From Pyropia yezoensis (lineage: Eukaryota > Rhodophyta > Bangiophyceae > Bangiales > Bangiaceae), in NCBI GenBank assembly GCA_009829735.1, contig CM020620.1, forward strand, positions 12,521,420 to 12,585,419: DNA of 64,000 nucleotides, written 5' to 3'. Position numbers and translations under genes: made by a program. A model generated the notes under the pieces. It did not search any database and was not told the DNA's origin. It saw only the letters and a list, made by a program, of their open reading frames with translations. Shown here one piece after another: positions 27,935 to 63,205 of this stretch (position 1 is its first letter; each line of letters starts with the position of its first letter).

Positions 27935-27936
27935 TG

Positions 27937-33684: not shown

Positions 33685-33694
33685 GGGGGGGAGG
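33685..33694 (+). other. Element A polypurine tract
   Basis: A run of ten purines (GGGGGGGAGG) directly abuts the 3' LTR and the pol stop codon. It primes plus-strand DNA synthesis. Confidence 0.85.
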
Positions 33695-43743: not shown

Positions 43744-44106
43744 TGTAGCACAATAGGAATCCGTCGCACGTCCACTCTCAGGGAACACTCACCAAGGGGG
43801 ATCGGCACCAACGTCACCGGGAGGCCAAGGTTGCTGTCCTTGGAGCGCAAGCCACGGGACCAAGATGGGAGCCCAAATGGGAGGGGTTTGTTGTTCTATC
43901 TTGGCCGGCGGTGGATTCGCCACCGGCCCCCTCGTTATAAACCCTCGGAGACACTACTAACTACCCTCCACCCCAAGATGCAAGTCCCTCTGGTCATACG
44001 TAACTTATAGATACCGTGACCAGCTCGGACTCTCAAATTGAAAGTTAAGGATTAGAAGTAGCCCCCCTAATATTAGGGTCACAATACGGACAACCATATT
44101 GCTACA
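43744..44106 (-). repeat. Element B 3' LTR (left)
   Basis: 363 bp. Its ends TGTAGCACAATA and TATTGCTACA are inverted repeats. It contains TTATAA (43935-43940), which is palindromic and could act as a TATA element on either strand. On plus it lies about 750 bp upstream of the antisense ORF start. Confidence 0.95.
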
Positions 44107-44118
44107 TATCCCCCCCTT
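44107..44118 (-). other. Element B polypurine tract
   Basis: On the minus strand AAGGGGGGGATA directly precedes the 3' LTR. With the primer site at the other end, this fixes the element's orientation as minus. Confidence 0.85.
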
Positions 44119-44693
44119 AGATTCGGCCCGTCCTCGGGTCGAGTTGCATTCGGGTTACCGAATGTAAGTGGGTCGCGTGACTGTTTACCCGTCGGGTGGG
44201 GCTTTGCGCCCCGTCGCGACAGACACCCCTTTTCGAGGTTGTCCGAGGGGGGTGCCCCCCTTTGCGTGGTACACACACACGATCCGTTTTCCGGACCGTT
44301 AAATTCCCGATGCGGGTTGCTGTTCGCGCCCCCCCTTTCCGAGGGGTGGTGCAAGCGGATCCGCCACCAGGTGCCTGGTGGTAGGGGGGCCCCTCTCGTG
44401 TGGACGATTGAGTGGGGGGCGGGGGCTGCCCGCGTTGCGTGGGGGCGGTTGGGGGTGACCCCCCTTACTTACCCCGTGTGTGGGTGTGGCCCCGTCCCGC
44501 CCAGGTGCCTGGGTGGAGCGCGGTCGTAGCCCCGTGGGGCGCGGGTCGACCCGCGTGCCTGCGGCGCTTCTCGTGGCCGTTTGTGGTCATAAGCGCGGGT
44601 GTCCGCGCTTCCCTGGCTCGTCCCGGTTATCCCACCGTACCGGGTTGTAGCCGTCGACGGCTTGTGGGCGCGGGGGACTCCGCACCCGTTATC

Positions 44694-47139
44694 ATGTCCT
44701 ATCCCCAGGTGCTTGAAGAGGAGGAAGACCTCCTGATCGGGGAGGAGATGGAGGACGACGCGCCTGTCGGTCCCGACGCCGCGCGTTACGGGGTGAGCTC
44801 GTCTGACGACGACGGGCTTGCGGTGTCCGTCCGTCTGTCGGCCGGAGGACTGTCGTCCGTGTGCAGCGGCACGACGGTGCCGTCGGCCGGAGGTCAACCC
44901 GGCGGTCAACCGCGCGTGGCGGCTTCTACCCCCTCTCTGCCGGCTGCCCGGATGGGGCCTGGTGCCGGTGCCGGCTCACCGCAGGTACCTCAAGATGGTC
45001 CGCCCTGCGGCGGAGGTCGCGACCCGCAGCCGACTCCGGCTGGTCAAGGTGGTCCGGGTGTCCGGGCGGTGACTCCTCGAGGCGGTCCCGACGTTGACGC
45101 GGGTGGTGGTGGCGGTGCGACACCCGGTGCGGCGGGTCAAGACGGTGCGGGTGTCCGCACGTCCGGGGCTCCGGCTCCGGAGGCTGTCCAAGTGCCTTCC
45201 CCTTCCGAGGTTGGCCACGCCGACGGGTGGTGCCGGCGCCGGTGCCGTACCTGCGGTGCCGCGGGCGTCGAGCGGTCAAGACGCTTCTTCTCCCATGGCG
45301 GTTGACACCGGGAGTTACTCCGGGCGGGCGCCCGCCCTTCTTCTTCCTCCTCGGCCTCGTCCATCTCCGACGTCGGCCCCTCTGCCGGTGGTGCGTCCCC
45401 CGGCGCCCCCGATTCTTCCTGGTCCTGCCCGGGTTGCCCCGTTGGGTGGCGGCGTCGCCGTGGCGGCGGGTCAACCCGCCATGTCGGTGTCCGACTTGGT
45501 GGCTCGGGTTCGAGGCCTCACGGTGCAAGAGTCGATGGAGTCCGATGGGCGTATGCGGGTGGACTTCCACCTGGTGCATCCCCGTGGAGAATCCTCCCGG
45601 CGCGTCAAGGTGGACCCGTGCTGGGAGCGGGAGTTGGTGCGGCTGGTCAACCAGCCGAACGCGGTCCGGGTGGAACACCATTGGATCCTGAGTCAGCCGG
45701 ACGACCGGCATGCGCAGCTCTGGCGCACCCGGGTGGGACGGGGTGAGGTCTACCTCGACCCCAACTTCGGGGTCTGCGACCTGATTGCCCCCGCGTTGCC
45801 GCGGGAGATTGACTACCCGGCTAGTGCTCGGGGGATTGCGGCGGCGGCGGAGCCGGTTGCGTTTGGGGAGACGGTGAGCCGTACCGGTCGGTATCCCGAC
45901 TTTGACTACTACCCGGGGGTACCCCCGTATCTGTCGTTGACGGCTCCCTACCCGCCCATGGCGGGGTTGAAGTCGGCGTCGAGTTGGCGACGTAACCATG
46001 GTGTCATGGCGGATGCGTTCCGCACGGATATAACGTGTGCGTTGCAGACCGGCAACGGTCGTGCTCCGGTATACACTCCCGTGCGCCCGCCGCTATGGCA
46101 GGAGGGGTGGGAACCCGCCCCTGCTTTCCGGTTTGACACCGGCTCCTGTCTTCGCTACTTCGGGAGTGTGTTGGCCTCGCGACCGGTCCACCCGTTGCAG
46201 GGTACCTTCACCCTTGAGGTTACCCTCGGGCAGGCTTCATCCTTCTTGCTGTCCGTCCGCCGGCAGGGTCGTCTGTTTCATCTTCCGACGGGTGTCCGTC
46301 GGCACATCGCGCAGTTGGGCGTGGATCTGATAGCTGCCAAGACCGGGTTGGCCCGAAAGTTCGAAGCCCTGCTGGCTGTTCACGATGCCGTGAACTGGGC
46401 TGGGGTGTTGGCCCTTCCCCCGTACCGGGACCCGCAGGCTGGGGCTTCCCCCTTGCCTCGTCACTCGTTGCGTGTCCGGCGTACTCAGCCGGGTGAGCCT
46501 AGTTGCCATGGGTGGGCGTCCACCGAGGCCGTTCCTGACCTGGGTATTCCCATGGTTATCCATGACCCTCTTCAGGTCCTTGCTCCGTGGTTCGGTAACC
46601 CGATGCCGGCGGCGGTTGGCCGTCGTCCCCGAGAGTGGGGCTCTGTGGGTGGGGAGCGTGAGGTGTCCCGTCGTCGGGCGGAGTACCGCCGTGGTTACGG
46701 TGGAGCCCCTTCGGTAGGGTCCTACCGGGCCTCGTATCAGGTGCCACCGGCTCCGGTGGTAGCCGTGTCGGCTCCTGTGGCTCCTCTGGCTGCGCCAGTG
46801 TCACCTCCCGCCCCTGTCCTACATGACGGGGGTCCCCGTCTCTGGTATAAAGGCGTTGACGCCCTTGTTACCCGCGGAATGCGTGGGGGTCTCTCTGTTA
46901 GCTGGGGGGATATCCCCCCAGGTGCTGCGCTGGTTGGGTCAGCGCGTTGCTTTGGTGGCGTGCTGGACCGCCTCCAGAAAGCTCTGGAGGACGTGGAGGC
47001 TGGCCGCAGCACCCTCGTCCAGCTATGCACCGAGGTAACTCGGGTGGTCGACCGTCGTGACGTTGCCGACCGGTGGAGCACGGAGGTCTACGCGCTTACG
47101 CGTGAGTGGCCTCCCTCGGGCAGTGGGTCTACCCACTGA
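44694..47139 (+). pseudogene. Element B antisense ORF, one frameshift
   Basis: This ORF is antisense to gag-pol and lies between pol and the 3' LTR. The ATG at 44694 begins MSYPQVLEEEEDLLIGEE, aligned with MSDPQVPGGEDDLLLEEE in element C. The N-terminal frame runs to 45305. The remainder, from about 45215 to the TGA at 47137-47139, is in the next frame, so a net one-base shift lies near 45190-45240. The C-terminal 550 residues align with element C without gaps, for example MSVSDLVARVRGLTVQESM, NQPNAVRVEHHWILSQPDD and GVRRHIAQLGVDLIAAKTG. An acidic N-terminus, a Pro/Ala/Gly-rich linker and a mixed alpha/beta C-terminal domain are visible; there are no transmembrane segments and no family I recognise. 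The shift could also be a sequence error. Confidence 0.75.
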
Positions 47140-47619
47140 GGAGTGCTATTGTTTGTGCGGGAGAGGGCCCCGGCAACCCTTATGGTAGCCGGGTAGTAGT
47201 GAGTATAAACTCATCCCCCGCTGGGGGCATTGCTTGCCTCTGTTTGCTGCCCTGGGGAGTACCCCTTCTGGCTCAGTGGTGCCTTGCCTCCCGCCCAACT
47301 TCTTCCGGTTGGTTCATGCTTGGGGAGGTTATCCTCCCTCACTTTGTGTCTTGGCTTGGGGAGGTCATCCTCCCGTGTAAGCTCCCTAGTTACTTCGATA
47401 TTATCGGAGTTAGCCTTTACCTTTAAGTTAACTTATTAAGGTTCAGGTTTTTACTTAGTTACCTAAGCTTAGCTCTACTTAGTTACCTAAGCTTGGTTCG
47501 ACTTAGAAACCTAAGTCTGATTTGACTTAGTAACCTAAGTCTGCCGTAACCACGTCACACCCTACTTAGTAGGTATAAGCCTCACCCCCCAACAGCCGAA
47601 GTCGGTGTCGGTTGGGTTG
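47140..47619. other. Element B convergent spacer
   Basis: This spacer separates the stop codons of the antisense ORF (plus) and pol (minus), so two transcription units converge here. It holds the 24-bp palindromic tandem repeats at 47453-47548 and an AT-rich stretch (47380-47470). In element C the matching spacer is 58571-59020. Confidence 0.6.
47453..47548. repeat. Four 24-bp tandem repeats with internal palindrome
   Basis: Units start at 47453, 47477, 47501 and 47525. Each begins ACTTAG and contains CTTAG-NNAAC-CTAAG-type inverted arms. Element C has only about two diverged units at the same place (about 58897-58945), so the array expanded in B or shrank in C. Confidence 0.8.
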
Positions 47620-50600
47620 TTACAGTAGGCGTCGTCGCCTCATGTACGGCATGAGGAGTTGGCGGGGTATATTCGCCGCCTGTTCCCAGGTGGGTGAGTC
47701 GTATCCGACCCACATAACCTTGACGTACCAGGGTCCTGGTATGTCCGGGTCGGTGTGTCCGACCACGCTCTCTACTTGGTATGGAATCCCATCCGGTCCC
47801 ACCGGGTCATCCGACCGGTGGGTTGTAAGAGCTTCATGTAGCAACCCAGCCGGTACCGGCTGAGGCTGTTCCGGCTTCGGAGCAGGTGTGACATCATTCA
47901 TGCTGATGCGTTGAATCTCCGTATCGGAGTGTAAGATAACAGAGTGGTCATCTCTGTATAGGATCTGGTACGGTCCCTTGACCGGTTGCATAAGCTTGTT
48001 CCCTCGGAACTTCTGGTGTCTGATATAGACCCAGTCACCTGTTACCGGGGTTGCGTTGCGCACCCGTAGTCGGGCGTCGAAGTTCTTCTTGTATCGAAGT
48101 TGTGTTCTGTCAAGGGCACCCTTGAGCTTAGGAATCATCCACGATAGCTTGGCCAACCAAGCTAGGTGGATGCGTTCGGCGGGTCGGCCCTTCGGTGTAT
48201 CATACCGAGTGCACCTGCCGGGTGGCAGCGTCAGGTTACCGACGCCTAGTGGCATGACCCACTCCAGCGGAGCAATGTTTGTGCTCCGATGTGGCCTGGC
48301 ATTGTATGCCAGGGTGAGTACGGACAGAAGCCTGTCCCAAGTGTTCGTGTGCTCGGCCACGTAGCACTGTAGCATCTTTACGATGGTGCGGTTGAACCGC
48401 TCCACCTGCCCGTTGGACTGCGGGTGGTAGTCGGATGCCCGACGTGGTTCGATACCGAACATGCCCAGGACCTTAGTGCAGAATGCCGACGTAAGGTTTG
48501 CTCCGTTATCGGAGAGGAGTTGCTTCATGACTCCGTATGCACTGATCCAGTGGTCAACCACTGCGTTCATGATCGTGTATGCCGTATCATTCGGGATGGC
48601 TGCCGCTCTTGACAGCTTAGTGAAGCGGTCAGACATGACCAGGATGTACCTGTTCCCTTCTTCCGTTATCGGAAGTGGCCCGAGTATGTCGATAGCGACT
48701 TGCTCGTTGGGCCCATCAGGTGGGAATAGCTTCATGGCAGACGCCCGCCTATGTAGACTCATGCGGTTTCGTGCACAGGGGTGGCATCCCCGTACGTGGT
48801 CGACCACGTCGACGACCATTGCTGGCCAGTAGAAGAACCTTCGCATTGCTGCGAACATACGTGAACCCCCCGGGTGTCCGGCTGTAGGGTTCTCATGTTC
48901 TCGTTTCATGACGGCTTGCCGTAAGGACACGGGAACCACGACTTGATGTCGTCCATCGGCGGGTGCCCGCCGGTATATGAGTCCGTCTTCGTTCTCGGAG
49001 AAGATGCCGGCCGTACCGGCCAGGAGGTTAGCACGATGACGTCTACAGTCATCGTCGTTGGCCTGTGCCTCGCGGAAGTCCGCGAGGGTCAATGGGCACG
49101 CAAGGTGTGCCATGGTATGGTCAGCCATACCCTGGGTAGCATTACCCACCATGCACACCGGTACTACCGGGATGTCCTCGTCCACCGGGCGGGTATCCCC
49201 GCTCGGGGTGTCGAGTCGAGACAACGCGTCTCCGAGGTGGTGGGTTGACCCAGCCATATACACCGTGCGGTAGTCGTGCTCGACCATCTTCAGCCTCCAT
49301 CGGGCTAGCCTCCCATGGCTATCGGAATCCTTGTCACCAAGGTTGAGGAGCCATCGTAGGGGTTCGTGGTCGGACCTCACGATGAACCTGGAGCCCTCCA
49401 GGTATGGACGGAGCAGTTGCACTGCCCATATAACTCCGAGGCATTCACGCTCGGTGGCACTATAGTTCCGCTCAGCCGGGTTGAGTGTCCGGCTGAAGTA
49501 CCCTACCGGACGTAGGTCCGGGATAACGTTATCGGTACCGATCAACGTCTCTCCCTGTAACAGGGTGCATCCCACTTGTGTATCACACGCATCGACATCG
49601 ATGACGAAGGTACCCCGTCTATGCGGTAACGCAAGGACGGGTGGGGCTAGTAGGGCTCGCTTCAGCGACTCGAATGCCTCCTCTTCGCTAGGCGATGGGG
49701 GTTGGAGTACCTTGGGTAAGGTACTGCTCGTAAGAACCGTTAACGGTTTAGCTATCCGAGCGAAGTCCTTGACGAACCGTCGGTATACATTGCACATTCC
49801 CAGGAAGCTCTTGAGCTGCGTCTGGGTGTTAGGGAACCGGGCATCCCGGAGTGCCCGGGTATTGGCTTCGAGTACCCCTAGTTTACCAGGGGTTATCTGG
49901 TGGCCCAGATATTCGACCGTCTGTTGGAAGAAGGCGCACTTCTTCAGACGCAGGGTTACCCCGGCGTTCCTCAAGAGGGTGAGTACCTCGTCAACATGTT
50001 GTACATGGTCATCCATGTTACGCGAGAAGACGATGACGTCATCGAGGTACACTAGGCAGTTACGCCACTTCACCCCAGACAGTATGATGTCGATAGCCCG
50101 CTGGAATGTAGCGGGGGCGTTGGACAATCCGAAGGGCATCCTTAGGAACTCGTACACTCCACTGTGACAGACGAATGCCGTCTTGGGGATATCCTCGTCC
50201 GCCACCGGGATCTGCCAGTATCCGGCATTGCAGTCGATGGTGGTAAACACCGTAGCCTCCCCCAGGGAGTCGATGCATTCATCCATCCTTGGTAAAGGGT
50301 ATGAGTCCTTCTTGGTAACCAAGTTGAGGCGTCGATAATCGATGCAAAACCGAGGGGTTTGATCCTTCTTCGGCACAATAACGACTGGGGCACCCCATTC
50401 CGACATCGAAGGTCGGATCACCTTAGCTTCACTCATCCTCTTCACTTCTCCATCAACGATCTCTCGTTGCATAGGTCCCGCTCGGTGCGGTTGTGAGCGG
50501 GCGGGTCGTGCGCCTGGTACCAGGTCTATACGATGTTGGGTTGCCCCAATGGTCCCCAAGGCCCCGCCTGTCCACATAACGTCATGCTTTCTTAGCATCC

Positions 50601-51786
50601 GTCGTACCCCTTCGGCTACCGAAGGGGGAAGGTGGTCGAGGTCAGCCTCGGCCAGTGCCTTCAAGGCCTCTTGGTCCTTTGGCGGCAGGTCCGCCGGAGC
50701 CGCCGATGGGTTAGGCTTCCCGTCATCGGTTTGCTGTCGCTCGGTGGTCTCGGCGACCGCCAGTACTTCAAGTGGTTCCACTTGACCTTCCTTATCAGGG
50801 GTAAGGATATCTCCTTCGTAGAGTTCGGCAATCCCGAGGATAGTTCCCTTCGGGAGGGTGACTGCCTTACGGCGATAGTTCGCCATCACTAGGAGGGACG
50901 ACCCTTCTGCTGGGAGGTCTATGAGACCGTTGGCCATGGTCAACCCATGGCGCTTGTACGTCCGTAGGTTGGACTGGACTCTGCAGATGCCTGCGAGGTC
51001 GCAGTTAACCGGGAGGACTGTCTCCGACAACGGCTCAAAGCGAGTTCGCTTGGCCAACCGAAGTGTCTTCGGCTCGACGCTTGCGTACACCTCAGCCACG
51101 TTAACGTGGCTTCCTTGTAGCGTCAGGTCCCTGACGATAGCCGTGTGTCCTCGCTTCGTGCCGTCGGCTTCTTGAAGCTCGACGGTCCTCCGGCCTGGCC
51201 GGATTGCATCAACGTGAACGTTGATGAAGGTGCACCCCAGTATGCAGGGCACCGATAGCGTTTCACATACCAGGAAGTCAACTTCCGTGGTGAGATCCCC
51301 GATGGTAACCCGCAGCGACATCGCTGCGGTCGTACGAATGAGTCGACCATTCGCGTCCTTGATGGTGGGTCCCCGAGTCACTCTGACTCGTGGAAGCCAC
51401 TTGTCCGGGAGGGTATCCTTCCGGATAAGGTTGGGTCCAGCCCCTGTATCCAGTACAGGGTAGTACGATCGTGTCGACTGGGGGTCAACCCCCAGTGTGG
51501 CTGATACCTTGAAGTTCTCCAAGGTAAACAACACATGTCCTACACCGATATCCGGTGTAGCTCGGGCATCCTGAACAGGGCCCTTGTCTGGTTCAACGTG
51601 AAGGGGCTTCCCGTCCTCTCCTCCCAACCTCGGAGGTTGGTCATCAATCCCCTGACGCCGTGTCGTCGGGGCCGGAAGGTGTACCCGGGTGTTGATGCGG
51701 CGTCGGCTCAACCGCGCTCTCCGTGGGGCTTTCCCCGCGGTACTCCGGGGTGGCTTGCTTGGGTGACCCCAGCGCCCCCCGGTCAT
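47620..51786 (-). CDS. pol: Element B pol (PR-RT-RH-IN-chromodomain), intact
   Basis: 1388 codons from the first ATG, but the frame is open further upstream and is probably entered by -1 frameshifting from gag. Protease: YPVLDTGAGPNLIRKD (about residue 115). Reverse transcriptase: FCIDYRRLNLVTKKDSYPLP and the catalytic VYLDDVIVFS (about 578). RNase H: FVIDVDACDTQVGCTLLQ, with ACD where ASD is usual. Integrase: HENPTAGHPG and CHPCARNR zinc ligands, then the D-D-E triad (VAIDILGPL about 1030, LSDNGANLTSAF about 1093, GQVERFNRTI about 1126). The C-terminal chromodomain reads YQVESVVGHTDPD, then WYVKVMWVGYDSPTWEQ (about 1340-1380). It differs clearly from element A pol and so belongs to another lineage. 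All catalytic residues are present. Confidence 0.95.
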   Translation of the reverse strand: MTGGRWGHPSKPPRSTAGKAPRRARLSRRRINTRVHLPAPTTRRQGIDDQPPRLGGEDGKPLHVEPDKGPVQDARATPDIGVGHVLFTLENFKVSATLGVDPQSTRSYYPVLDTGAGPNLIRKDTLPDKWLPRVRVTRGPTIKDANGRLIRTTAAMSLRVTIGDLTTEVDFLVCETLSVPCILGCTFINVHVDAIRPGRRTVELQEADGTKRGHTAIVRDLTLQGSHVNVAEVYASVEPKTLRLAKRTRFEPLSETVLPVNCDLAGICRVQSNLRTYKRHGLTMANGLIDLPAEGSSLLVMANYRRKAVTLPKGTILGIAELYEGDILTPDKEGQVEPLEVLAVAETTERQQTDDGKPNPSAAPADLPPKDQEALKALAEADLDHLPPSVAEGVRRMLRKHDVMWTGGALGTIGATQHRIDLVPGARPARSQPHRAGPMQREIVDGEVKRMSEAKVIRPSMSEWGAPVVIVPKKDQTPRFCIDYRRLNLVTKKDSYPLPRMDECIDSLGEATVFTTIDCNAGYWQIPVADEDIPKTAFVCHSGVYEFLRMPFGLSNAPATFQRAIDIILSGVKWRNCLVYLDDVIVFSRNMDDHVQHVDEVLTLLRNAGVTLRLKKCAFFQQTVEYLGHQITPGKLGVLEANTRALRDARFPNTQTQLKSFLGMCNVYRRFVKDFARIAKPLTVLTSSTLPKVLQPPSPSEEEAFESLKRALLAPPVLALPHRRGTFVIDVDACDTQVGCTLLQGETLIGTDNVIPDLRPVGYFSRTLNPAERNYSATERECLGVIWAVQLLRPYLEGSRFIVRSDHEPLRWLLNLGDKDSDSHGRLARWRLKMVEHDYRTVYMAGSTHHLGDALSRLDTPSGDTRPVDEDIPVVPVCMVGNATQGMADHTMAHLACPLTLADFREAQANDDDCRRHRANLLAGTAGIFSENEDGLIYRRAPADGRHQVVVPVSLRQAVMKREHENPTAGHPGGSRMFAAMRRFFYWPAMVVDVVDHVRGCHPCARNRMSLHRRASAMKLFPPDGPNEQVAIDILGPLPITEEGNRYILVMSDRFTKLSRAAAIPNDTAYTIMNAVVDHWISAYGVMKQLLSDNGANLTSAFCTKVLGMFGIEPRRASDYHPQSNGQVERFNRTIVKMLQCYVAEHTNTWDRLLSVLTLAYNARPHRSTNIAPLEWVMPLGVGNLTLPPGRCTRYDTPKGRPAERIHLAWLAKLSWMIPKLKGALDRTQLRYKKNFDARLRVRNATPVTGDWVYIRHQKFRGNKLMQPVKGPYQILYRDDHSVILHSDTEIQRISMNDVTPAPKPEQPQPVPAGLLHEALTTHRSDDPVGPDGIPYQVESVVGHTDPDIPGPWYVKVMWVGYDSPTWEQAANIPRQLLMPYMRRRRLL

Positions 51787-51794
51787 CCTTCCTC

Positions 51795-53984
51795 TTACTC
51801 GTTTCCCGCCCTTGGTAGGGTGCTGTCCGCCGGGACATCCGGCTGCGGAGGTGCCCCCTCGACGGCCAGTACTCCACCTGGAGCTGGCTGCCTACCCGGT
51901 GCGGGTCCGGGTGCTCGGGGGGGATACCCCCCGGTAGATGCCTTGCGTTGCGCCGCTGCCCGCCGAGACTCCTCGGGGATGAGTGGGCAGGAAGACACCC
52001 AGTGCTGGGGATCCCCACACAACATACATCCGGACGTGCCGGTCCCCCCTTGAGGTCGCATCGGGGTAGCCCCGTAGCTACGGTTGCCTCCCTCGGGCGC
52101 CCGAGTGCCTGCTCCCTGGTAGGCCTTGGGTCCTTGGGTCAACCGGAACATGGACTCCCCCAACCGGTTGGGTCGGCCCGCAATCTGCGGGGGTGCCTCC
52201 GTGCGCACCGCCCATGTTGGCAAGGGTTGGTGAGGGTTACCCGTCACCGGGGAGTACCCCGTAGTCCGCACATACGGGACGCGCCGTCCCGTTCCTTCGT
52301 TGACCTGGAACTGGGTTCCAGCCGGGGCGATGTACGCTACCGTACCATGTTCATCAATCACCGGCGTCGCCGGTAGCAACAGGTGGCCCTGTTGGTCGAC
52401 TAGAGGGTCACCCTCACCAATAGGGGTATGTTCGGTCGCCACCAGTACTGGTGCGGCCTTACGTTCCACCTTCTCTTGCCTCGGTACCGGGGTAAGACTG
52501 GGCTTGCCTCCCTCACCCTTGGGCTTCGGGGCCAAGGCACACTCCGGGTGTAGAACCCGGTAGGCGTCCCCTAGGGACTTGCACATATGCATCAGTCGAC
52601 TGAAGTTCGTCCGTGCCGTGTTGGCGCCCCGTGCGGATATCCGCACGTAGTTGGGTACTCCTGCGAACAGGATGGCCCGTAGCTCCCCTTCTCCGAGGAG
52701 CTTCCCCAGCTCGTAGTCGAGCTCTTGGATCCGGCGTCCAAACATCTCCTCATCCTCCCAGGACTGGGCGGTGGCAGTGCGAAGGGCCCGATAGTGGTCT
52801 TCGCACTTGTCCTCACTGAGGTAGCTGCTCAGCAGCTCCTTCAATATCCCACGGTAATCCGTGGGGGTGGCCGCGACCCTCATTCCCGGCATCGGGGATG
52901 CCTGGCGAAGAATGCCTCGCACCCGTTCATCAACAAAGAACGGGAGGATCTCCAGGGCCAGCCCCTCGTTAACGAGCGCCTTGTCTGCGGCTGCCTTGAA
53001 GCTGGTCAAGAAGCCGATGACTGCCAACGGGCGTCCGTTCGGCCCCCCGAACATAGGGACTCCCTTCATAAGGGTCTGCATAGAGCGGATCGCCCGATGC
53101 GACGTATTACGCATCGATTCCGATACGGTGGTAGAGCGGTCCTCCAAACGATAACGTTCCGGAGTAAGAACCGACCGGAAGACCTCGTTGACGATCTCCG
53201 TGTCAGCGTCCTGGATATCCAGTCGCTTAGCCAGTTGATGAGCGAACTCACCGGACTCCATCCGCTTCAGTAGGCTCGCAGTTACCTGCGCGGTCATAGC
53301 TTCGACCACTGAAGATGGTACTTCAGGCGTCGGCACCTCGGGAACCCGAGTTGCCGGGCCTCCTTCGTCGTGGAGGTACTGCGAGAGGGTACCCCCTCCC
53401 CCAATAACCGACTCTCCCCCGGCGTACGTATCTGCCGGGTCGTGTCCGCGGAGTCCGCTTCGGGTGCTCCGAGCGTATCGCTCCGTGTGACTCCGTTCCA
53501 ACTCTGCCGACGAGTCGGACCCATACCCCATTGTGTCCGGGGGTTGTCCAGGAGTAGCAACCCCGGGATTGACCCTGGTGGACTCCGAAAGTAGTCCGGC
53601 CGGTTCGAACCGTACCGGTGTGGGAGGAACACGACGGGGTCCCGTCGTGTGCCGTGTTGACATCAACACTGCCATTGCGTCCTCCGTCCGATCTTGACGG
53701 GCGTCGAGCCCGGAAAACCGGGCCTCGATGCGGGCCAATGATGCCATCAGGGAATCCCCTGGTGAAGGAGGCGGCGGAGTGAGGTCGGTCGACGACAGTT
53801 GAGGCGGGCCCCCGCCTCCTGCCGTCCGAGCCGTGCCAAACGTCGATCCGGCACCGGAAAGCATTGGCGTCTCAATGTTATCGATCGGGTTCCCGATCCC
53901 GGTTCCCGTAGTCACCTCCGGGGTCGGCGTCGACGCCGATCCGTCATCTTGAACGTTCCCCGTCTCTTGGGTAGACATGGTCAC
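51795..53984 (-). CDS. gag: Element B gag, intact
   Basis: 729 codons. The N-terminal 230 residues are Thr/Pro/Ser-rich. A helical retrotransposon capsid-like core follows (about 260-500: TPTDYRGILKELLSSYLSED, SWEDEEMFGRRIQELDYELG). A CCHC zinc knuckle, CMLCGDPQHWVSSC (C-x2-C-x4-H-x4-C), lies near residue 675. The start could be M1 or M3 (ACCATGTCTACC context). The last codons GNE-stop overlap the frameshift site. Confidence 0.92.
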   Translation of the reverse strand: MTMSTQETGNVQDDGSASTPTPEVTTGTGIGNPIDNIETPMLSGAGSTFGTARTAGGGGPPQLSSTDLTPPPPSPGDSLMASLARIEARFSGLDARQDRTEDAMAVLMSTRHTTGPRRVPPTPVRFEPAGLLSESTRVNPGVATPGQPPDTMGYGSDSSAELERSHTERYARSTRSGLRGHDPADTYAGGESVIGGGGTLSQYLHDEGGPATRVPEVPTPEVPSSVVEAMTAQVTASLLKRMESGEFAHQLAKRLDIQDADTEIVNEVFRSVLTPERYRLEDRSTTVSESMRNTSHRAIRSMQTLMKGVPMFGGPNGRPLAVIGFLTSFKAAADKALVNEGLALEILPFFVDERVRGILRQASPMPGMRVAATPTDYRGILKELLSSYLSEDKCEDHYRALRTATAQSWEDEEMFGRRIQELDYELGKLLGEGELRAILFAGVPNYVRISARGANTARTNFSRLMHMCKSLGDAYRVLHPECALAPKPKGEGGKPSLTPVPRQEKVERKAAPVLVATEHTPIGEGDPLVDQQGHLLLPATPVIDEHGTVAYIAPAGTQFQVNEGTGRRVPYVRTTGYSPVTGNPHQPLPTWAVRTEAPPQIAGRPNRLGESMFRLTQGPKAYQGAGTRAPEGGNRSYGATPMRPQGGTGTSGCMLCGDPQHWVSSCPLIPEESRRAAAQRKASTGGYPPRAPGPAPGRQPAPGGVLAVEGAPPQPDVPADSTLPRAGNE
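51801..51807 (-). promoter_or_regulatory. Candidate -1 frameshift site G_GGA_AAC (element B)
   Basis: On the minus strand GGGAAAC sits in the correct register (gcG GGA AAC GAG TAA), one codon before the gag stop. The pol frame is exactly -1 to gag. The same heptamer in the same place is kept in element C, while the pol ATG downstream is not. Confidence 0.7.
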
Positions 53985-54185
53985 AATCAGTCAACCGACG
54001 TATCAATCACCACGAACAAGAGAGCGAGGGGGTAGATTGGGGAGAGTAACAGTAGGTCACAGTCACAGGTAAAAGCTCAACACAATCGATCAGGTCGCAA
54101 CACCACGAGTACAAGAAAAGGACCGGATCCCTATCCGTGTGCCAGGGCCGAAGACGGCGTCACCACAAGGGTGACGGAAACCCGT

Positions 54186-54202
54186 CCCCTGCTGCTCCAC
54201 CA
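54186..54202 (-). other. Element B primer-binding site
   Basis: One base after the 5' LTR, the minus strand reads TGGTGGAGCAGCAGGGG. It would pair with a tRNA ending in CCCCUGCUGCUCCACCA. It differs from the site of element A, so the two families use different primers. Confidence 0.65.
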
Positions 54203-54203
54203 A

Positions 54204-54566
54204 TGTAGCACAATAGGAATCCGTCGCACGTCCACTCTCAGGGAACACTCACCAAGGGGGATCGGCACCAACGTCACCGGGAGGCCAAGGTTGCTGTCCT
54301 TGGAGCGCAAGCCACGGGACCAAGATGGGAGCCCAAATGGGAGGGGTTTGTTGTTCTACCTTGGCCGGCGGTGGATTCGCCACCGGCCCCCTCGTTATAA
54401 ACCCTCGGAGACACTACTAACTACCCTCCACCCCAAGATGCAAGTCCCTCTGGTCATACGTAACTTATAGATACCGTGACCAGTACGAACTATCAAATGG
54501 AAAGTTAAGGATTAGAAGTAGCCCCCCTAATATTAGGGTCACAATACGGACAACCATATTGCTACA
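54204..54566 (-). repeat. Element B 5' LTR (right)
   Basis: 363 bp, about 98% identical to the left LTR. Five of the six differences cluster within 20 bp near 54483-54501. It is followed by the target duplication GACAG at 54567-54571. Confidence 0.95.
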
Positions 54567-55273
54567 GACAGCTGCAGGGAAACGCATGGACGATTGTCTG
54601 CCCGGCCACCCGCGACGCGAAGAAGTCCGACGAGATACCATCTCCTACTCTCCTCCCATGGGCGAGTGTATGATTGGCACACGTTGACACGCCATTGTTC
54701 CCATCCGCGAGTGTGGCCAAATGAGGGCCAGACGACAAATGACGACCACTATCAGATTCAGACCTGAGGGAGCCCCCTAGTGCAGAGCATTGCTCGGAGA
54801 TGGTAGTGTGCGCGCTTGATAAGGAAAGCCAGTAGGCTGCGTATGTTCTTGAGGAGAAATTGGCGGCCCCAGTCAAGGTTTGATCGCTTACCTGGATCGT
54901 TGGGACGGCTGGTACCACCGTTTTCGCGGCGTTCCCAACGGCCAGTGTCAGTCGGGTCCGCGGGATTTGCGACTGCCACAACGTGGTCACCGATGTGCCC
55001 TACCCCCTCGACACCACCCATCTGCATCGTCACCACATCCGCCCTCGGCCACGTGCTGGAATGACGTGCCCTTCTCACCACAATGCCACCCCTCCGTCCC
55101 CCGCGCCCCCCTATGTAGCATCCCTGGCCCTGACTTGGCGCCGACCCGGGATGGCGACCAGGGGACGCGAGGTGCCAGGACACGCCCGCAGTGTAAGGAT
55201 GCTTGGCGGCCGGGGCCCGTGCCCGGCACTGAGATGCGGTGGACTACGCTACCCACACGTGAGAGAGGGACTT
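54567..55273. other. Spacer between elements B and C
   Basis: 707 bp of non-element sequence that was contiguous with 43738 before B inserted. On minus, TTTCCCTGCAG at the B junction resembles a 3' splice site. A 142-codon minus frame (54990-54562) is of unclear status. I see no recognised gene. Confidence 0.4.
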
Positions 55274-55637
55274 TGTAGCACAATAGGGTATCCGCTGCAC
55301 GTCCTCTCTCAGGGACCACTCGCCAGGGGGGATCGGCACCAACGTCACCGGGAGGCCAAGGTTGCTGTCCTTGGAGCGCAAGCCACAGGACCAAGATGGG
55401 AGCCCAAATGGGAGGGGTTTGCTGTTCTGGCTTGGCCGGCGGTGGATTCGCCGCCGGCCCCCTCGTTATAAACCCTCGGAGACACTACTAACTACCCTCC
55501 ACCCCAAGATGCAAGTCCCTCTGGTCATACGTAACTTATAGATACCGTGACCAGTACGGACTCTCAAATTGGAAGCCAAGGATTAGAAGTAGCCCCCCTA
55601 ATATTAGGGTCACAATACGGCCGACCATATTGCTACA
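55274..55637 (-). repeat. Element C 3' LTR
   Basis: 364 bp, TGTAGCACAATAGGG to GCTACA. It is clearly homologous to the B LTRs, with a one-base insertion near position 15 and scattered substitutions. The 5 bp before it (GACTT) should reappear after the unseen 5' LTR. Confidence 0.92.
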
Positions 55638-55649
55638 TATCCCCCCCTT
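55638..55649 (-). other. Element C polypurine tract
   Basis: The minus strand reads AAGGGGGGGATA next to the LTR, identical to element B. Confidence 0.85.
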
Positions 55650-56088
55650 AGATTCGGCCCGTCCTCGGGTCGAGTTGCATTCGGGTTACCGAATGTGAGT
55701 GGGTCGCGTGACCGTTTACCAGTCGGGTGGGGCTTTGCGCCCTGTCGCGACAGACACCCCTTTTCGAGGTTGTCTGAGGGGGGTGCCCCCCATTGTGTGG
55801 TACACACACGATCCGTTTTCCGGACCGTTAAATTCCGGATGCGGGTTTCTGTTCACGACCCCCCTTTCCGAGGGGTGGTGCAAGCGGATCCGCCACCAGG
55901 TGTCTGGTGGTAGGGGGGCCCCTCTCGTGTGGACGATTGAGTGGGGGGCGGTTGGGGGTGACCCCCCTGGATTGCCCCGTGTGGGGGGGGCGTGGCTCCG
56001 GTCCAGGTGCCTGGGTGGAGCGCCCTCGTAGCTCGGCTGGCGTGGGTCGTCCCGCGCTGCCGTATCGCTCGTGCTGAGCTGTGTGGTT

Positions 56089-56112
56089 ATAAGCGCGGGT
56101 GCCCGCGCTTTC
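56089..56112 (+). promoter_or_regulatory. Leader hairpin upstream of the antisense ORF
   Basis: AAGCGCGGG-TG-CCCGCGCTT forms a hairpin with 9-bp perfect arms about 90 nt before the antisense ORF start. Element B has the same structure at about 44590-44611 with one mismatch. It would lie in the 5' UTR of the antisense transcript. Confidence 0.5.
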
Positions 56113-56200
56113 CTGGCTTGTCCGCGCGAGCGTTCCTCGTACCGGGTCGAGCCGGTTGCGGCTTTCTGGCACGGGACGCCCCTGCTACCCCGGTTTCACC

Positions 56201-58570
56201 ATGTCGGACCCCCAGGTACCCGGGGGCGAGGACGACCTCCTGCTTGAGGAGGAGGAGGAGGTGATGCCGGACGACGTTCCTGTCTTCGCCACCGCTGCCG
56301 AGTGCTTCTTGGCGAGCTCGTCGGAGGACGAGGACGACCGGGTGACCGTTCGTGTGGCCCCGGAAGGAGCGCCGGGAGGATTGTCGTCCGTGTGCAGCGG
56401 CACGACGGCTCCGTCGGGTGGCGGGCAGCCGCGTGTAGCGGCTGCCTCTACCCCTAATCCTCCGGCGGCCCGGATGGCTTCTGTCGCCGGTGCCGGCGCA
56501 ACTCTACCTCAAGACGGCGTCGCCGGCGTGGCGGATGGTCGTGGCCGCACCCCAGCCGAGCCGGCGGGTCAAGACGGCGCGGGTGCCCGCCCGGTTGGTG
56601 TGTCCGCGTCGGCGGGTAACGGGTCTACCCCTGCCGCCCTTGTGGTGCCCACGTCGGGCCCGGGTGGCGGCGATGCTCTGCCCGCGGTGCTGCGGACGCT
56701 TGGTGGTCAAGAAGTGTCTACCCCGATGGCAGTGGACTCCGGGAGCTACTCCGGGCGGGCGCCCTCCCTTCTTCTTCCTCCTCGGCCCCGTGCTCGGCCG
56801 GGGCCGGCCCATCTGCCCGTGGGGCTTCCCCCGGCGCCCCCTCTTCTTCCTGGTCCTGCCCGGGTTGCCCCTTTGGGTGGCGGCGTCGCCGTGGCGGCGG
56901 GTCAACCCGCCATGTCGATGTCCGATTTGGTGGCTCGGGTTCGAGGCATGACTGTGCAAGAGTCGATGGAGTCCGCTGGGCGGATGCGGGTGGACTTTCA
57001 CCAGCCGCGTCTCCCTGGAGAGACCTCCCGGCGCGTCAAGGTGGACCCGAGTTGGGAGCGGGAGTTGGTGCGGCTGGTCAACCAGCCGAACGCGGTCCGA
57101 GTGGAGCATCATTGGATCCTGAGTCAGCCGGACGACCGGCATGCGCAGCTCTGGCGCACCCGGATTGGGCGGGGTGAGGTCTACCTCGACTCCGGTTTCG
57201 GGATATGCGACCTGATTGCCCCCGCGTTGCCGCGGAAGGTTGACTACCCGGCTAGTGCTCGGGGGATTGCGGCGGCGGCGGAGCCGGTTGCGTTCGAGGA
57301 GACGGTGGGTGATACCGGCCGGTATCCCGGGTTCGAGTACTTCCCGAGGGTATCCCCGTACCTGACGTTGACGGCTCCGTACCCGCCTATGGCGGGGTTG
57401 AAGTCTGCGTCGAGCTGGCGCCGCAACCATGGTGTCATGGCGGATGCGTTTCGCACCGATATAACGTGTGCTTTGCAGACCGGTAACGGTCGTGCGCCGG
57501 TGTACACTGCCGTGCGCCCGCCTCTGTGGCAGGAGGGGTGGGAACCCTCCCCTGCTTTCCGGTTTGACACCGGCTCCTGCCTCCGATACTTCGGGAGTGT
57601 GTTGGCCTCCCGGCCCGTCCACCCGTTGCAGGGGACCTTCAACCTTGAGGTTACCCTCGGGCAGGCTTCCTCCTTCTTGCTGTCCGTCCGCCGGCAGGGG
57701 CGCCTGTTCCATCTTCCGACGGGTGTCCGTCGGCACATCGCGCAGTTGGGCGTGGATCTGATAGCTGCCAAGACTGGGTTGGCCCGGGAGTTCGAGGCCC
57801 TGCTGGATGTTCACAATGCCGTGAACTGGGCTGGGGTGTTGGCCCTTCCCCCGTACCGGGACCCGCAGGCTGGGGCTTCCCCCTTGCCTCGTCACTCGTT
57901 GCGTATCCGGCGTACTCAGCCGGGTGAGCCTAATTGCCATGGGTGGGCGTCCACCGAGGCTGTTGCTGACCTGGGAATTCGCATGGTTATCCATTACCCT
58001 CTTCAGGTCCTTGCCCCGTGGTTCGGTAACCCGATACCGGCGGCGGTGGGCCGTCGTCCCCGAGAGTGGGGCTCTGCGGGTGGGGAGCGTGAGGTGTCCC
58101 GTCGTCGGGCCGAGCCCCGCCGGGTTTACGGTGGGGCCCCTTCAGTAGGGTCCTTCCGGGCCTCGTATCAGGTGCCACCGGCTCCGGTAGTAGCCGTGTC
58201 GGCTCCTGTGGCTCCTCTGGCTGCGCCAGTGTCACCTCCCGCCCCTGTCATGCGTGACGGGGGCCCCCGTCTCTGGTATGAGGGCGTTGACGCCCTTGTT
58301 GCCCGCGCAATGCGGGCGGGTCTCTCTGTTAGCTGGGGGGATATTCCCCCAGGTGCTGCGCTGGTTGGGTCAGCGCGTTGCTTCGGTGGCGTGCTTGACC
58401 GCCTCCAGACCGCTCTGGAGGACGTGGAGGCTGGCCGCAGCACCCTCGTCCAGCTATGCACCGAGGTAACTCGGGTGATTGACCGTCGTGAGATTGCCGA
58501 CCGGTGGAGCATGGAGGTATACGCGCTTACGCGTGAGTGGCCTCCCTCGGGCAGTGGGTCTACCCACTGA
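56201..58570 (+). CDS. Element C antisense ORF, intact, unknown family
   Basis: 789 codons from ATG 56201 (TTTCACCATGTCG); the frame itself is open 34 codons further upstream. Residues 1-50 are very acidic (LLLEEEEEVMPDD). Residues 50-240 are a Pro/Ala/Gly/Ser linker. From about 245 a well-mixed 540-residue region follows: MSMSDLVARVRGMTVQESME, WERELVRLVNQPNAVRVEHH, TGSCLRYFGSVLASRPVHPL, LFHLPTGVRRHIAQLGVDL and ALEDVEAGRSTLVQLCTEV. There is no signal peptide, transmembrane helix, zinc finger or enzyme motif that I can recognise. It is antisense to gag-pol and convergent with pol. Between copies B and C most differences are at third codon positions of this frame, so the protein was under selection. 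It resembles in position, not sequence, the antisense ORFs of plant Tat-lineage elements. Confidence 0.85.
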   Translation: MSDPQVPGGEDDLLLEEEEEVMPDDVPVFATAAECFLASSSEDEDDRVTVRVAPEGAPGGLSSVCSGTTAPSGGGQPRVAAASTPNPPAARMASVAGAGATLPQDGVAGVADGRGRTPAEPAGQDGAGARPVGVSASAGNGSTPAALVVPTSGPGGGDALPAVLRTLGGQEVSTPMAVDSGSYSGRAPSLLLPPRPRARPGPAHLPVGLPPAPPLLPGPARVAPLGGGVAVAAGQPAMSMSDLVARVRGMTVQESMESAGRMRVDFHQPRLPGETSRRVKVDPSWERELVRLVNQPNAVRVEHHWILSQPDDRHAQLWRTRIGRGEVYLDSGFGICDLIAPALPRKVDYPASARGIAAAAEPVAFEETVGDTGRYPGFEYFPRVSPYLTLTAPYPPMAGLKSASSWRRNHGVMADAFRTDITCALQTGNGRAPVYTAVRPPLWQEGWEPSPAFRFDTGSCLRYFGSVLASRPVHPLQGTFNLEVTLGQASSFLLSVRRQGRLFHLPTGVRRHIAQLGVDLIAAKTGLAREFEALLDVHNAVNWAGVLALPPYRDPQAGASPLPRHSLRIRRTQPGEPNCHGWASTEAVADLGIRMVIHYPLQVLAPWFGNPIPAAVGRRPREWGSAGGEREVSRRRAEPRRVYGGAPSVGSFRASYQVPPAPVVAVSAPVAPLAAPVSPPAPVMRDGGPRLWYEGVDALVARAMRAGLSVSWGDIPPGAALVGSARCFGGVLDRLQTALEDVEAGRSTLVQLCTEVTRVIDRREIADRWSMEVYALTREWPPSGSGSTH

Positions 58571-59020: not shown

Positions 59021-62000
59021 TTACAGTAGGCGTCGTCGCCTCATGTAAGGCATGAGGAGTTGGCGGGGTATATTCGCCGCCTGTTCCCAGGTGGGTGAGT
59101 CGTATCCGACCCACATCACCTTGACGTACCAGGGTCCTGGTAGGTCCGGGTCGGTGTGTCCGACCACGCTCTCTACTTGGTATGGAATCCCATCCGGTCC
59201 CACCGGGTCATCTTACCGGTGGGTTGTAAGAGCTCCATGTAGCAACCCAGCCGGTACCGGCTGAGGCTGTTCCGGCTGCGGAGCAGGTGTCACATCATTG
59301 AGGTTGATGCGTTGTATCTCCGTATCGGAGTGCAGGATGACAGAGTGATCATCTCTGTGTAAGATCTGGTACGGTCCCTTGACCGGTTGCATAAGCTTGT
59401 TCCCTCGGAACTTCTGGTGACTGATATAGACCCAGTCACCTGTTACCAGGGTTGCGTTGCGTACCCGTAGCCGGGCGTCAAAGTTCTTCTTGTATCGAAG
59501 TTGTGTGCGGTCAAGGGCACCCTTGAGCTTAGGTATCAACCACGATAGCTTGGCCAACCAAGCTAAGTGGATCCGTTCGGCCGGTCGGCCCTTCGGTGTA
59601 TCATACCGAGTGCACCTGCCTGGTGGCAGCGTCAGGTTACCGACGCCCATCGGCATGACCCATTCCAGGGGGGCAATGGTGGTACTCCGGTGGGGCTTGG
59701 CATTGTATGCCAGGGTCAAGACGGACAGAAGCCTGTCCCACGTCTTCGTGTGTTCCGCCACATAGCAGTGGAGCATCTTGACGATGGTGCGGTTGAACCG
59801 CTCCACCTGCCCGTTGGACTGCGGGTGGTAGTCGGATGCCCGACGGGGTTCGATACCGAACATGCCCAGGACCTTAGTGCAGAATGCTGACGTAAGGTTT
59901 GCTCCGTTATCGAAGAGGAGTTGCTTCATTACTCCGTAAGCACTGATCCAGTGGTCAACCACTGCGTTCATGATGGTGTAGGCCGTATCGTCCGGGATTG
60001 CTACTGCCCGTGACAGCTTAGTAAAGCGGTCCGACATGACCAGGATGTACCTGTTCCCTTCTTCCGTTACCGGAAGCGGTCCGAGTATGTCGATAGCGAC
60101 TTGCTCGTTGGGTCCATCCGGGGGGAACAGTTTCATAGCGGATGCCCGCCTATGAAGACTCATGCGATTCCGTGCGCACGGGTGGCATCCCCGCAAGTGG
60201 TCGATTACGTCGACGGCCATTGCTGGCCAGTAGAAGAACCTTCGCATTGCTGCGAACATGCGCGAACCCCCCGGGTGTCCGGCTGTGGGGTTCTCGTGTT
60301 CTCGTTCCATGACGGCCTGCCGTAAGGACACGGGAACCACGACCTGATGCCGTCCATCGGCGGGTGCCCGCCGATATATGAGTCCGTCCTCGTTCTCGGA
60401 GAAGATGCCGGCCGTGCCGGCCAGGAGGTTAGCACGATGGCGTTTACAGTCATCGTCATTGGCCTGTGCCTCGCGGAAGTCCGCGAGGGTCAATGGGCAC
60501 GCAAGGTGTGCCCTGGTATGGTCAACCATACCTTGGGTAGCATTACCCACCATGCACACCGGTACCACCGGGATGTCTTCGTCCACCTGTCGGGTATCCC
60601 TGCTTGGGGTATCGAGTCGCGACAGCGCGTCCCCCAGATGATGGGTGGAGCCGGCCTTATATATGGTCCGGTAGTCGTGCTCGGCCATCTTCAGCCTCCA
60701 CCGGGCTAGCCGACCGTGGCTGTCGGAATCCTTGTCACCAAGGTTGAGGAGCCATCGTAAAGGTTCGTGGTCGGACCTTACGATGAACCTGGAACCTTCC
60801 AGGTATGGCCGGAGCAGTTGCACTGCCCATATGACTCCGAGGCACTCGCGCTCGGTGGCACTATAGTTACGCTCAGCCGGGTTGAGTGTCCGGCTGAAGT
60901 ACCCTACCGGATGTAGGTCCGGGATAGCATTATCGGTACCGATGATGGTCTCTCCCTGTAGCAGGGTGCATCCCACTTGAGTGTCGCAGGCGTCGACGTC
61001 GATGACGAAGGTCCCGCGTCTATGCGGCAACGCAAGCACGGGTGGGGCTAGCAGAGCTTGCTTGAGCAGCTCGAATGCCTCTCCATCGCTGGGTGAGGGA
61101 GGTTGGAGTACCTTTGGCAAGGCCCTGCTAGTCAGAACCATTAACGGTTTGGCTATACGAGCGAAGTCCTTGACGAACCGTCGGTGTACGTTGCACATTC
61201 CCAGTAAGCTTTTCAGCTGTGTCTGGGTGGTTGGGTATTGCGCATCCCGGAGTGCCCGGGTATTAGCTTCGAGCACTCCCAGTTTACCTGGTGTGGTCTG
61301 GTGACCCAGATACTCGACTGTCTGCTGGAAGAAGGCGCACTTCTTGAGGCGCAGGGTTACCCCGGTGTTCCGCAAGAGGGTGAGTACCTCGCCGACATGT
61401 TGCACATGGTCATCCATGTTACGCGAGAAGACGATGACGTCATCGAGGTACACTAGGCAGTTACGCCACTTGACTCCCGACAGTATGATGTCGATGGCCC
61501 GTTGGAATGTGGCGGGGGCGTTGGACAATCCGAAGGGCATCCTTAGGAACTCGTACACGCCACTGTGACAGACGAACGCAGTCTTGGGGATATCCTCTTC
61601 CGCCACTGGGATCTGCCAGTACCCGGCATTGCAGTCGATAGTGGTAAACACTGTGGCTTCCCCCAGCGAGTCGATACACTCGTCCATCCTTGGTAAAGGG
61701 TATGAGTCTTTCTTGGTAACCAAGTTGAGGCGTCGATAATCGATGCAAAACCGAGGGGTTTGATCCTTCTTCGGTACGATAACGACTGGGGCACCCCACT
61801 CCGACATCGAAGGTCGGATCACCTTAGCTTCGCTCATCCTCTTCACTTCCCCATCAACGATCTCTCGTTGCATAGGTCCCGCACGATGCGGTTGCGACCG
61901 CGCTGGTCGAGCACCTGGTACCAGGTCTATACGGTGTTGGGTTGCCTCAATGGTACCCAGCGCCCCGCCGGTCTACATGACGTCGTGCTTTCTTAGCATC

Positions 62001-63205
62001 CGTCGTACCCCTCCAGCTACCGAAGGGGGAAGGTGGTCGAGGTCAGCCTCGGCCAGTGCCTTCAAGGCTTCTCGGTCCTTTGGCGGCATGTCCGCCGGAG
62101 CCGCCGATGGGTTAGGCTTCCCGTCATCGGGTTGCTGTCGCTCGGTGGTCTCGGCGACCGCCAGCACCTCAAGTGGGTCCACTTGACCTTCCTTGTCAGG
62201 GGTAAGGATATCTCCTTCGTAGAGCTCGGCAATCCCGAGGATAGTTCCCTTCGGGAGGGGGACTGCCTTTCGGCGATAGTTCGCCATCACCAGCAGTGAT
62301 GACCCCCCTGCTGGGAGGTCTGCGATACCATTGGCCATGGTCAACCCATGGCGCTTGTAGGTTCGTAGGTTGGACTGGACTCTGCAGATGCCTGCGAGGT
62401 CGCAGTTAGCCGGGAGGACTGTCTCCGACAACGGCTCAAAGCGAGTCCGCTTGGCCAGCCGGAGTGTCTTCGGTTCTACGCTTGCGTATACCTCAGCCAC
62501 GTTAACGTGGCTCCCTTGTAGCGTCAAGTCCCTGACGATCGCTGTCTGTCCTCTCTTCGTCCCGTCGGCCTCTTGCAGCTAGACGGTCCTCCGGCCCGGC
62601 CGGATTGCATCAACGTGAACGTTGATGAAGGTGCACCCCAGTATGCAGGGCACCGATAGGGTCTCACACACCAGGAAGTCAACTTCCGTAGTAAGCTCCC
62701 CGATGGTGACCTGCAGCGACATCGCTGCGGTCGTTCGAATGAGACGACCATTCGCATCCTTGATCGTGGGTCCCCGAGCAGCTCTGACTCGCGGGAGCCA
62801 CTTGTCCGGGAGGGTATCCTTCCGGATCAAGTTAGGTCCAGCCCCGGTATCCAGTACGGGGTAATACGACCGGGTCGACTGGGGGTCTACCCCCAGTGTG
62901 GCTGATACCTTAAAATTCTCCAAGGTGAACAGCACGTGGCCTACATAGATATCCGGTGTAGCTCGGGCATCCTGAACAGGGCCCTTGTCTGGTTCCATGT
63001 GACGGGGCTTCCCGTCCTCTCCTCCCAACCTTGGAGGTTGGTCATCAATCCCCTGACGCCGTGTCGTCGGGGCCGGAAGGTGTACCCGGGGTTTGATGCG
63101 GCGTCGGCTCAACCGCACTATCCGTGGGGCTTTCGCCGCGACAGTCCGGGGTGGCTTGCTCGGGTTACCCCAGCGACCCCGTGCCGTCCTTCCTCTTACT
63201 CGTTT
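59021..63205 (-). pseudogene. pol: Element C pol, three in-frame stops
   Basis: This is colinear with element B pol and about 95% similar by eye. Stops interrupt it at 62579-62581 (after PGRRTV; GAG to TAG), at 61973-61975 (after KHDVM; TGG to TAG) and at 59213-59215 (TAA where B has TCG, after LTTHR). Between the last two lies an open 886-codon stretch with RT (YLDDVIVFS), RNase H and integrase, and the chromodomain remains at 59030-59150. The ATG used as the first methionine in B is ACG here, supporting entry by frameshift and not by that ATG. LFDNGAN replaces LSDNGAN at the second integrase Asp region. Confidence 0.93.

Follow-up and report, generated by a model that had tools for sequence, protein, structure and literature searches.

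An antisense gene under purifying selection between pol and the 3' LTR of Ty3/gypsy elements in the red alga Pyropia yezoensis

We have analysed a stretch of 64,000 nucleotides of Pyropia yezoensis DNA (contig CM020620.1, positions 12,521,420 to 12,585,419 of the forward strand; hereafter the window) that contains two elements, B and C, each with a long open reading frame on the strand opposite gag-pol (hereafter the aORF; Table 1). Element B (43744-54566) is a Ty3/gypsy element by the order of its pol domains (protease, RT, RNase H, integrase) and by its 363-bp LTRs with a short target duplication, the 5-bp GACAG, on either side. Element C begins with its 3' LTR at 55274 and extends beyond the window edge; its pol shows no indels relative to that of B within the aligned part. 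Both elements carry gag-pol on the minus strand and the antisense gene on the plus strand, between the pol stop and the polypurine tract, so the original prediction was right in placing it between pol and the 3' LTR and in its strand. We note that the gag and pol ORFs of B overlap at 51795-51891, with pol in the -1 frame. Another Ty3/gypsy element of the window, A (27088-33994), has a clear chromodomain (54.8 bits) and LTR stretches reported as identical over 300 nt; no relative of the antisense protein was found in it. Further copies were sought in a genome assembly that totals 107,475,971 bases and includes three large contigs (43.6, 34.3 and 29.4 Mb); the P. yezoensis genome is described as 48% repeats, with LTR elements predominant and scaffolds of 43.6, 34.3 and 29.4 Mbp (PMC7423979).

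Table 1. Features of elements B and C, in window positions
Feature	Position	Strand	Detail	Basis
3' LTR of B	43744..44106	-	363 bp; GACAG duplication at 43739-43743 and 54567-54571	sequence, LTR alignment, repeats
Polypurine tract of B	44107..44119	-	TAAGGGGGGGATA on minus strand; directly inside 3' LTR	sequence read
TATA-like site of B	44588..44594	+	CATAAGC; 106 nt before ATG, then inverted repeat	
aORF of B	44694..47139	+	ATG 44694, break near 45211, second frame 45073-47139 up to stop	
24-nt near-palindromic units of B	47452..47547	.	ACTTAG..CCTAAGT; between two convergent stops	
pol of B	47620..51891	-	open; protease, RT, RNase H, integrase; chromodomain-like C-terminal stretch ~47659-47781	
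gag-position ORF of B	51795..53990	-	ATG at 53978; 97-nt overlap with pol	
5' LTR of B	54204..54566	-		repeats, sequence read, LTR alignment
3' LTR of C	55274..55637	-		repeats, sequence read, LTR alignment
TATA-like site of C	56088..56092	+	113 nt before ATG	
aORF of C	56201..58570	+	open, 789 codons from ATG	
pol of C	59213..63292	-	three in-frame stop codons (59215, 61975, 62581)	

A long plus-strand ORF had been predicted in both copies. This holds for C, where it is one open frame (56093-58570 from stop to stop, 825 aa), but not for B, where the ATG lies in frame 44412-45305 and a 2-nt gap relative to C near 45211 shifts the reading to the second frame. The shifted form is also found in another genome copy, L002, from which it follows that a broken aORF does not always block spread of the element; copies with a broken aORF perhaps spread through help in trans. 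Among 500 dinucleotide shuffles none yielded a plus-strand ORF as long, for B or for C. Length cannot alone choose the strand, however, since the minus strand of C holds an ORF, of 545 aa, whose length likewise exceeds that in 500 of 500 shuffles (the 388-aa minus-strand ORF of B exceeds 490). It is the substitution pattern, not ORF length, that identifies the coding strand of the aORF.

The count of 14 synonymous against 3 amino-acid changes between B and C, on which the original prediction was built, proved exact when repeated over the 67 codons concerned (57452-57652 in C), where dN/dS is 0.06. When the same substitutions were re-placed at random with the 5' neighbour kept (2000 runs), the synonymous changes in this stretch averaged 5.4 and reached at most 12, and 0 of 2000 runs arrived at 14. 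These 67 codons are a favourable part of the aORF: dN/dS is 0.445 over the whole ORF (773 codons), 0.357 past the frameshift of B, 0.19 in 57551-58000 and 0.65 in the N-terminal 132 codons. For pol, the same pair gives 0.104. The 125 synonymous changes seen over the whole aORF were again reached in 0 of 2000 runs, and the N-terminal 132 codons are weakly constrained, with 83 of 2000 runs as extreme. Indels between B and C, leaving out two gaps at the alignment edges, are multiples of three in 7 of 8 cases inside the aORF versus 2 of 16 outside it (Fisher p = 0.0007). We also note that B and C have diverged less at synonymous sites in the 3' half of the aORF (57551-58567; 0.11-0.15) than in pol (0.31), which may reflect either recombination among copies or a constraint acting on the DNA rather than the protein.

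Searches of the genome recovered many further copies. The matches retained are the best-scoring ones and therefore biased towards intact copies; within that scope, 62 of 65 matches to the B protein had no internal stop, as did 127 of 130 matches to a diverged relative (P0014) and 45 of 67 matches to a Pyropia vietnamensis relative (P0006). Some of the P0006 matches overrun the normal ORF end; in one, L023, three of the four stops lie at or past that end and the remaining one sits inside the C-terminal domain. We compared 39 copies, namely 38 from the genome (of which L001 is B itself) and C, and chose six to represent four lineages (B and C; L023; L010 and L011; L009), which form 15 pairs. The dN/dS of the aORF core is 0.165-0.30 in 14 of the 15, at synonymous divergences of 0.17 to 1.76; the fifteenth, L010-L011, has hardly any differences, with 0.75 for the core, 0.83 in control frame +2 and no value in +1, -0 and -1. 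Across the 14 informative pairs the control frames +1, +2, -0 and -1 all give at least 0.94. The mirror frame -2 gives 0.17-0.41, low because its wobble positions coincide with those of the aORF frame, but it contains 109 stops in 4039 codon comparisons; the aORF frame has 5 in 4109, all of them from the single stop of L009 in its five pairs. The proposed comparison of more copies in the aORF frame and the opposite frames thus gave ratios that are not near 1, and selection on the encoded protein is upheld over 39 copies and four lineages, with control frames. Nor does the minus strand account for the third-position bias, given the stops in frame -2 and ratios of 0.94-1.61 in frame -0; a minus-strand gene at this place, corresponding to the 545-aa ORF of C, was rejected on these frame -0 ratios together with 98 stops in 4109 codon comparisons.

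Within the main family (35 copies) the median dN/dS of the aORF core is 0.197 (range 0 to 0.539; the 475 of 595 pairs with at least 8 synonymous differences) and that of the pol C-terminus is 0.123 (493 pairs chosen in the same way); between lineages, the pol C-terminus ranges from 0.055 to 0.159 in the 14 pairs. The ratio of the aORF core is about twice that of the pol C-terminus in most pairs, B and C being a pair in which the two are equal (0.165 and 0.159). Internal stops occur in 2 of 39 aORF cores versus 4 of 38 pol C-termini, L022 being left out of the latter count as a short match. By the criteria used, the full-length aORF (788-815 codons, ending in STH) is intact in 21 of the 39 copies and not in the other 18. 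The aORF encodes a protein maintained by purifying selection, and we regard it as nearly certain that this is an accessory protein. It has to be considered that the antisense RNA might itself be the product, as dsRNA or through transcript collision that limits the element, with the ORF incidental; the aORF does converge on pol, with ~480 nt between the two stops in B, and roles of this sort are discussed for plant elements (PMC7264820). Protein-level selection in the aORF frame, indels in multiples of three and a recurring start and stop speak against this idea, which as a sole function is refuted by the between-lineage dN/dS with control frames, and we think it highly improbable. The antisense RNA may nevertheless have an effect besides that of the protein.

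The aORF is a regular part of the element. In all 39 copies located by their aORF, the C-terminus of pol lies downstream, convergent and on the opposite strand. A sample drawn independently of the aORF took every seventh of 150 scored pol C-terminus matches, from the second on, and so comprised 20 regions, at least three of which overlap the first copy set (L045/L002, L046/L030 and L048/L008). Convergent aORF sequence, part of it broken, was present on the other strand in 19 of these 20 regions, and in 12 the aORF was open over the ~570 codons covered; none of the 20 pol matches had a stop, the sample being one of the best pol matches. At the exception (L053, G000:C2:9871788-9874467) a second copy of the element is nested in the same orientation, with its LTR and gag lying where the aORF would be. 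We note that this nested copy is inserted in the gap that separates pol from the aORF site. We also note four aORF matches arranged in tandem on the same strand with ~3,489-bp spacing (G000:C2:9880067-9892399), perhaps an amplified piece of the element. As to origin, the aORF could be a captured gene, that is, a host gene or a transposon that inserted in the ancestor of the family and was then kept. It differs somewhat in composition from pol, the GC at third positions being 0.71 (C) and 0.70 (B) vs 0.645, and no relative of it was found in other kinds of element. On the other hand, no terminal inverted repeats of a nested transposon were found flanking it, and the 39 copies whose surroundings were read, which are among the best-scoring candidates in P. 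yezoensis, all sit in such elements. Capture, which we consider rather improbable, is moreover a statement of origin and is compatible with the explanation that we favour below.

The protein of C consists of an acidic N-terminus (residues 1-50), a low-complexity region (51-235), a conserved core (~281-610), a linker and a helical C-terminus (686-789). Its first 60 residues carry a net charge of -16, and a Pro/Ala/Gly-rich part comes next. Over the core of ~330 residues, C is 92% identical to B (303/330) and 58% identical to P0006 (192/329). The seven relatives that have an NCBI name are all hypothetical proteins of P. vietnamensis, and six further relatives come from contigs. The P. vietnamensis relatives are 38-45% identical over the BLAST alignments (33% for P0008), and P0014, one of the six from contigs, matches the P. 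yezoensis genome at 97%. Both relatives that retain the N-terminus, P0007 and P0008, open with a similar acidic stretch. Two AlphaFold models, with mean pLDDT of 33 and 31, contain no confident fold, and ten-residue means of 54 to 83 occur in the C-terminal helical stretch of the first model only.

No family had been recognised in the original prediction, and profile searches of Pfam, PDB, NCBIfam and PHROGs likewise gave no known family and no match to a DNA-binding domain. PF04195 (Transposase_28) was not matched by any of eight family members in hmmscan at E up to 10, NCBIfam and PHROGs returned nothing for the four proteins given at E up to 1, and a profile of eight members found two matches in PDB, both at chance level (E 0.28 and 0.33). 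The one Pfam match, DUF6214, appeared in two of eight members (best E 0.014; 13.9 bits for P0001 against a cut-off of 26.6) and was taken as compositional, and a match of one C-terminal piece to CRIC_ras_sig (E 0.19) was taken as chance. A PUR repeat that we suspected by eye in the most conserved block was rejected, as hhalign against four PUR repeats gave a probability of 0.15 and a score that 21 of 200 column shuffles also reached. Thirty pattern matches in viral contigs included no relative.

Two further roles can be weighed against these properties. An envelope-like protein would fit the location of the gene, since env too lies between pol and the 3' LTR. The gene is on the wrong strand for this, however, and the highest 19-residue hydrophobicity has a mean of 1.37 in a Pro/Ala/Val-rich segment, so that no membrane segment is apparent; of all the readings weighed here this is the least probable. 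Alternatively, the protein made from the antisense mRNA might bind Gag or the genomic RNA and serve as an accessory of the cytoplasmic particle, including the capsid. Its large size (789 codons, 73 Arg), the lack of a membrane segment, the helical C-terminal segment and a constraint of the same order as that of pol agree with such a role. Nevertheless, the protein matched neither a zinc knuckle nor a capsid family, production with Gag from the sense strand would be simpler, and genes in the same position of the plant elements Grande and Retand, discussed below, point elsewhere (to a nuclear product and a predicted DNA binder, respectively). We therefore consider a particle accessory unlikely.

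The context of the ATG was recognised in 27 of the 39 copies and falls into two N-terminal types, MSDPQV.. and MSYPQV.., with single-residue variants. In each of the 27, TATAA or CATAAGC lies 106-113 nt upstream of the ATG. A block, GGT[TC]ATAAGCGCGGG[TC]G[CT]CCGCGC, is shared by 32 of the 39 copies, from the main family and L023; it has no exact match in L002, L013, L029 and L037, and within ~1.5 kb upstream of the core it was not found in L009, L010 and L011, the most diverged copies. The sequence around the TATA-like block differs between the two N-terminal types. These features make it likely that the aORF is transcribed from a promoter of its own, for which the TATA-like sites are candidates, although our confidence is reduced by the failure to find the block in L009-L011.

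Repeats occur in the gap that lies between the convergent stops. The window has 6 matches to ACTTAGNNNCCTAA at no more than one mismatch vs 0.18 expected, and gap repeats were noted in B, C, L009, L012, L013, L023, L024, L028 and L034. They are units of the form ACTTAG-N4/5-CTAAGT in the B, C and L023 lineages, whereas L009 has a different type, ACAATTGT three times, and the gaps of L010/L011 have no repeat like ACTTAG..CTAAGT. Palindromes of this form were accordingly rejected as universal binding sites, as they are missing from the L009 and L010/L011 lineages. Lineage-specific gap palindromes could be targets recognised by their sequence, as in VANC systems, or equally well a terminator. It is conceivable, if quite improbable, that the protein is a sequence-specific anti-silencing or activating factor of a new fold that targets these palindromes, a VANC-like system of self and target with an independent origin in an LTR retrotransposon of red algae.

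The explanation that we favour, and to which as a whole we assign a probability of roughly 0.55, is that the aORF is a selected antisense accessory gene with its own promoter and that its product is a nuclear, trans-acting regulator. Transcription would be driven by a promoter ~110 nt upstream of the start codon, and the resulting antisense mRNA would converge on pol. Less surely, the protein may be a trans-acting nuclear factor that regulates the element, be it by activating it, by countering its silencing or by assisting the pre-integration complex. The combination of an orphan core with an acidic N-terminus, a long low-complexity arm and a helical C-terminus might be the layout of an adaptor. 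Taken by itself, a nuclear regulatory role has in our estimation an even chance; the suggestion draws on the nuclear product and own promoter of Grande and on the predicted DNA-binding domain of Retand. Accessory factors that face host defences are often loosely constrained, and the aORF, with a core ratio about twice that of the pol C-terminus and a still looser N-terminus, looks as such factors often do. We note that this seaweed genome of 107 Mb has many copies of the gene, many of them open, in lineages near synonymous saturation, and that selection is therefore measurable and the function testable.

B and C can be called chromoviruses, as in the original prediction, only provisionally. 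The C-terminus of B pol does have a chromodomain-like stretch in the place expected for a chromodomain, but this is a partial match to PF00385 at 15.1 bits, below the cut-off of 25.1; it lines up by eye with the chromodomain of element A, and BLASTP of the two pols leaves this end unaligned. Gypsy lineages that have a chromodomain outside the chromoviruses are reported (PMC12477816), and in the data of 2012 no chromodomains were reported for the retrotransposons of red algae, P. yezoensis among them (PMC3350952).

Grande, RIRE2, Retand and Boty carry antisense accessory genes, and the aORF is a further gene of this kind, with an orphan protein. Additional ORFs that lie antisense between pol and the 3' LTR (aORF-3R) are described in maize Grande (gene23), rice RIRE2, Silene Retand (ORF4, with Transposase_28, PF04195) and Phaseolus PvRetro13 (ORF2) (PMC7264820, PMC11963269); for Grande, a nuclear product and a promoter belonging to the antisense gene itself are reported, and DNA binding is predicted for the Retand domain (PMC7264820, PMC11963269). 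Antisense accessory genes of LTR retrotransposons have been described with no function assigned to them (PMC7264820). The aORF of P. yezoensis likewise lies between pol and the 3' LTR opposite gag-pol, is conserved in most copies and is under constraint like that of the element's proteins; it resembles the plant aORF-3R in place, orientation and conservation across copies and, like them, has no assigned function (PMC7264820, PMC11963269). An upstream promoter of its own is reported for Grande (PMC7264820) and inferred here. What is new is the combination of a protein without the Retand domain, a red-algal host and a pol with a chromodomain-like tail. Unlike Retand, the family lacks PF04195 in 8 of 8 members and its host is a red alga; Retand is described as a non-chromovirus lineage (PMC7264820, PMC11963269), whereas the P. 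yezoensis pol ends in the chromodomain-like stretch. The original prediction had set these elements against the plant Tat lineage, a contrast that is too narrow, as antisense genes at this place are reported for fungal Boty elements too (PMC7264820). The antisense gene brtn of Boty/BcGypsy1 from Botrytis cinerea is alike by description, being an extra gene in a Ty3/gypsy element outside plants (PMC7264820, PMC8365987).

More distant systems also invite comparison. The anti-silencing protein VANC of Arabidopsis VANDAL elements is, like the aORF product, a transposon accessory protein, and is a candidate for the way of working only; VANDALs are DNA transposons, unlike the LTR element B. VANC proteins target non-coding regions that consist of tandem repeats and diverge rapidly (PMC10398659), to be compared with the lineage-specific palindromic repeats in the non-coding gap of the P. 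yezoensis element. HBZ is the antisense gene of a deltaretrovirus and has a nuclear regulatory product. With HBZ and with APH-2, a deltaretrovirus antisense protein (PMC11963269), the aORF shares, by description, the status of an antisense gene of an LTR element. The HTLV antisense promoter lies inside the 3' LTR (PMC7264820), whereas the candidate promoter of the aORF is outside it. No such gene in a red alga came up in a literature search of titles and abstract openings, and the plant survey PMC6317226 makes no mention of 'antisense' or 'aORF'. An antisense accessory gene is now placed outside land plants and fungi, and since its protein has no match to the Retand domain, this suggests that the antisense position has been filled more than once.
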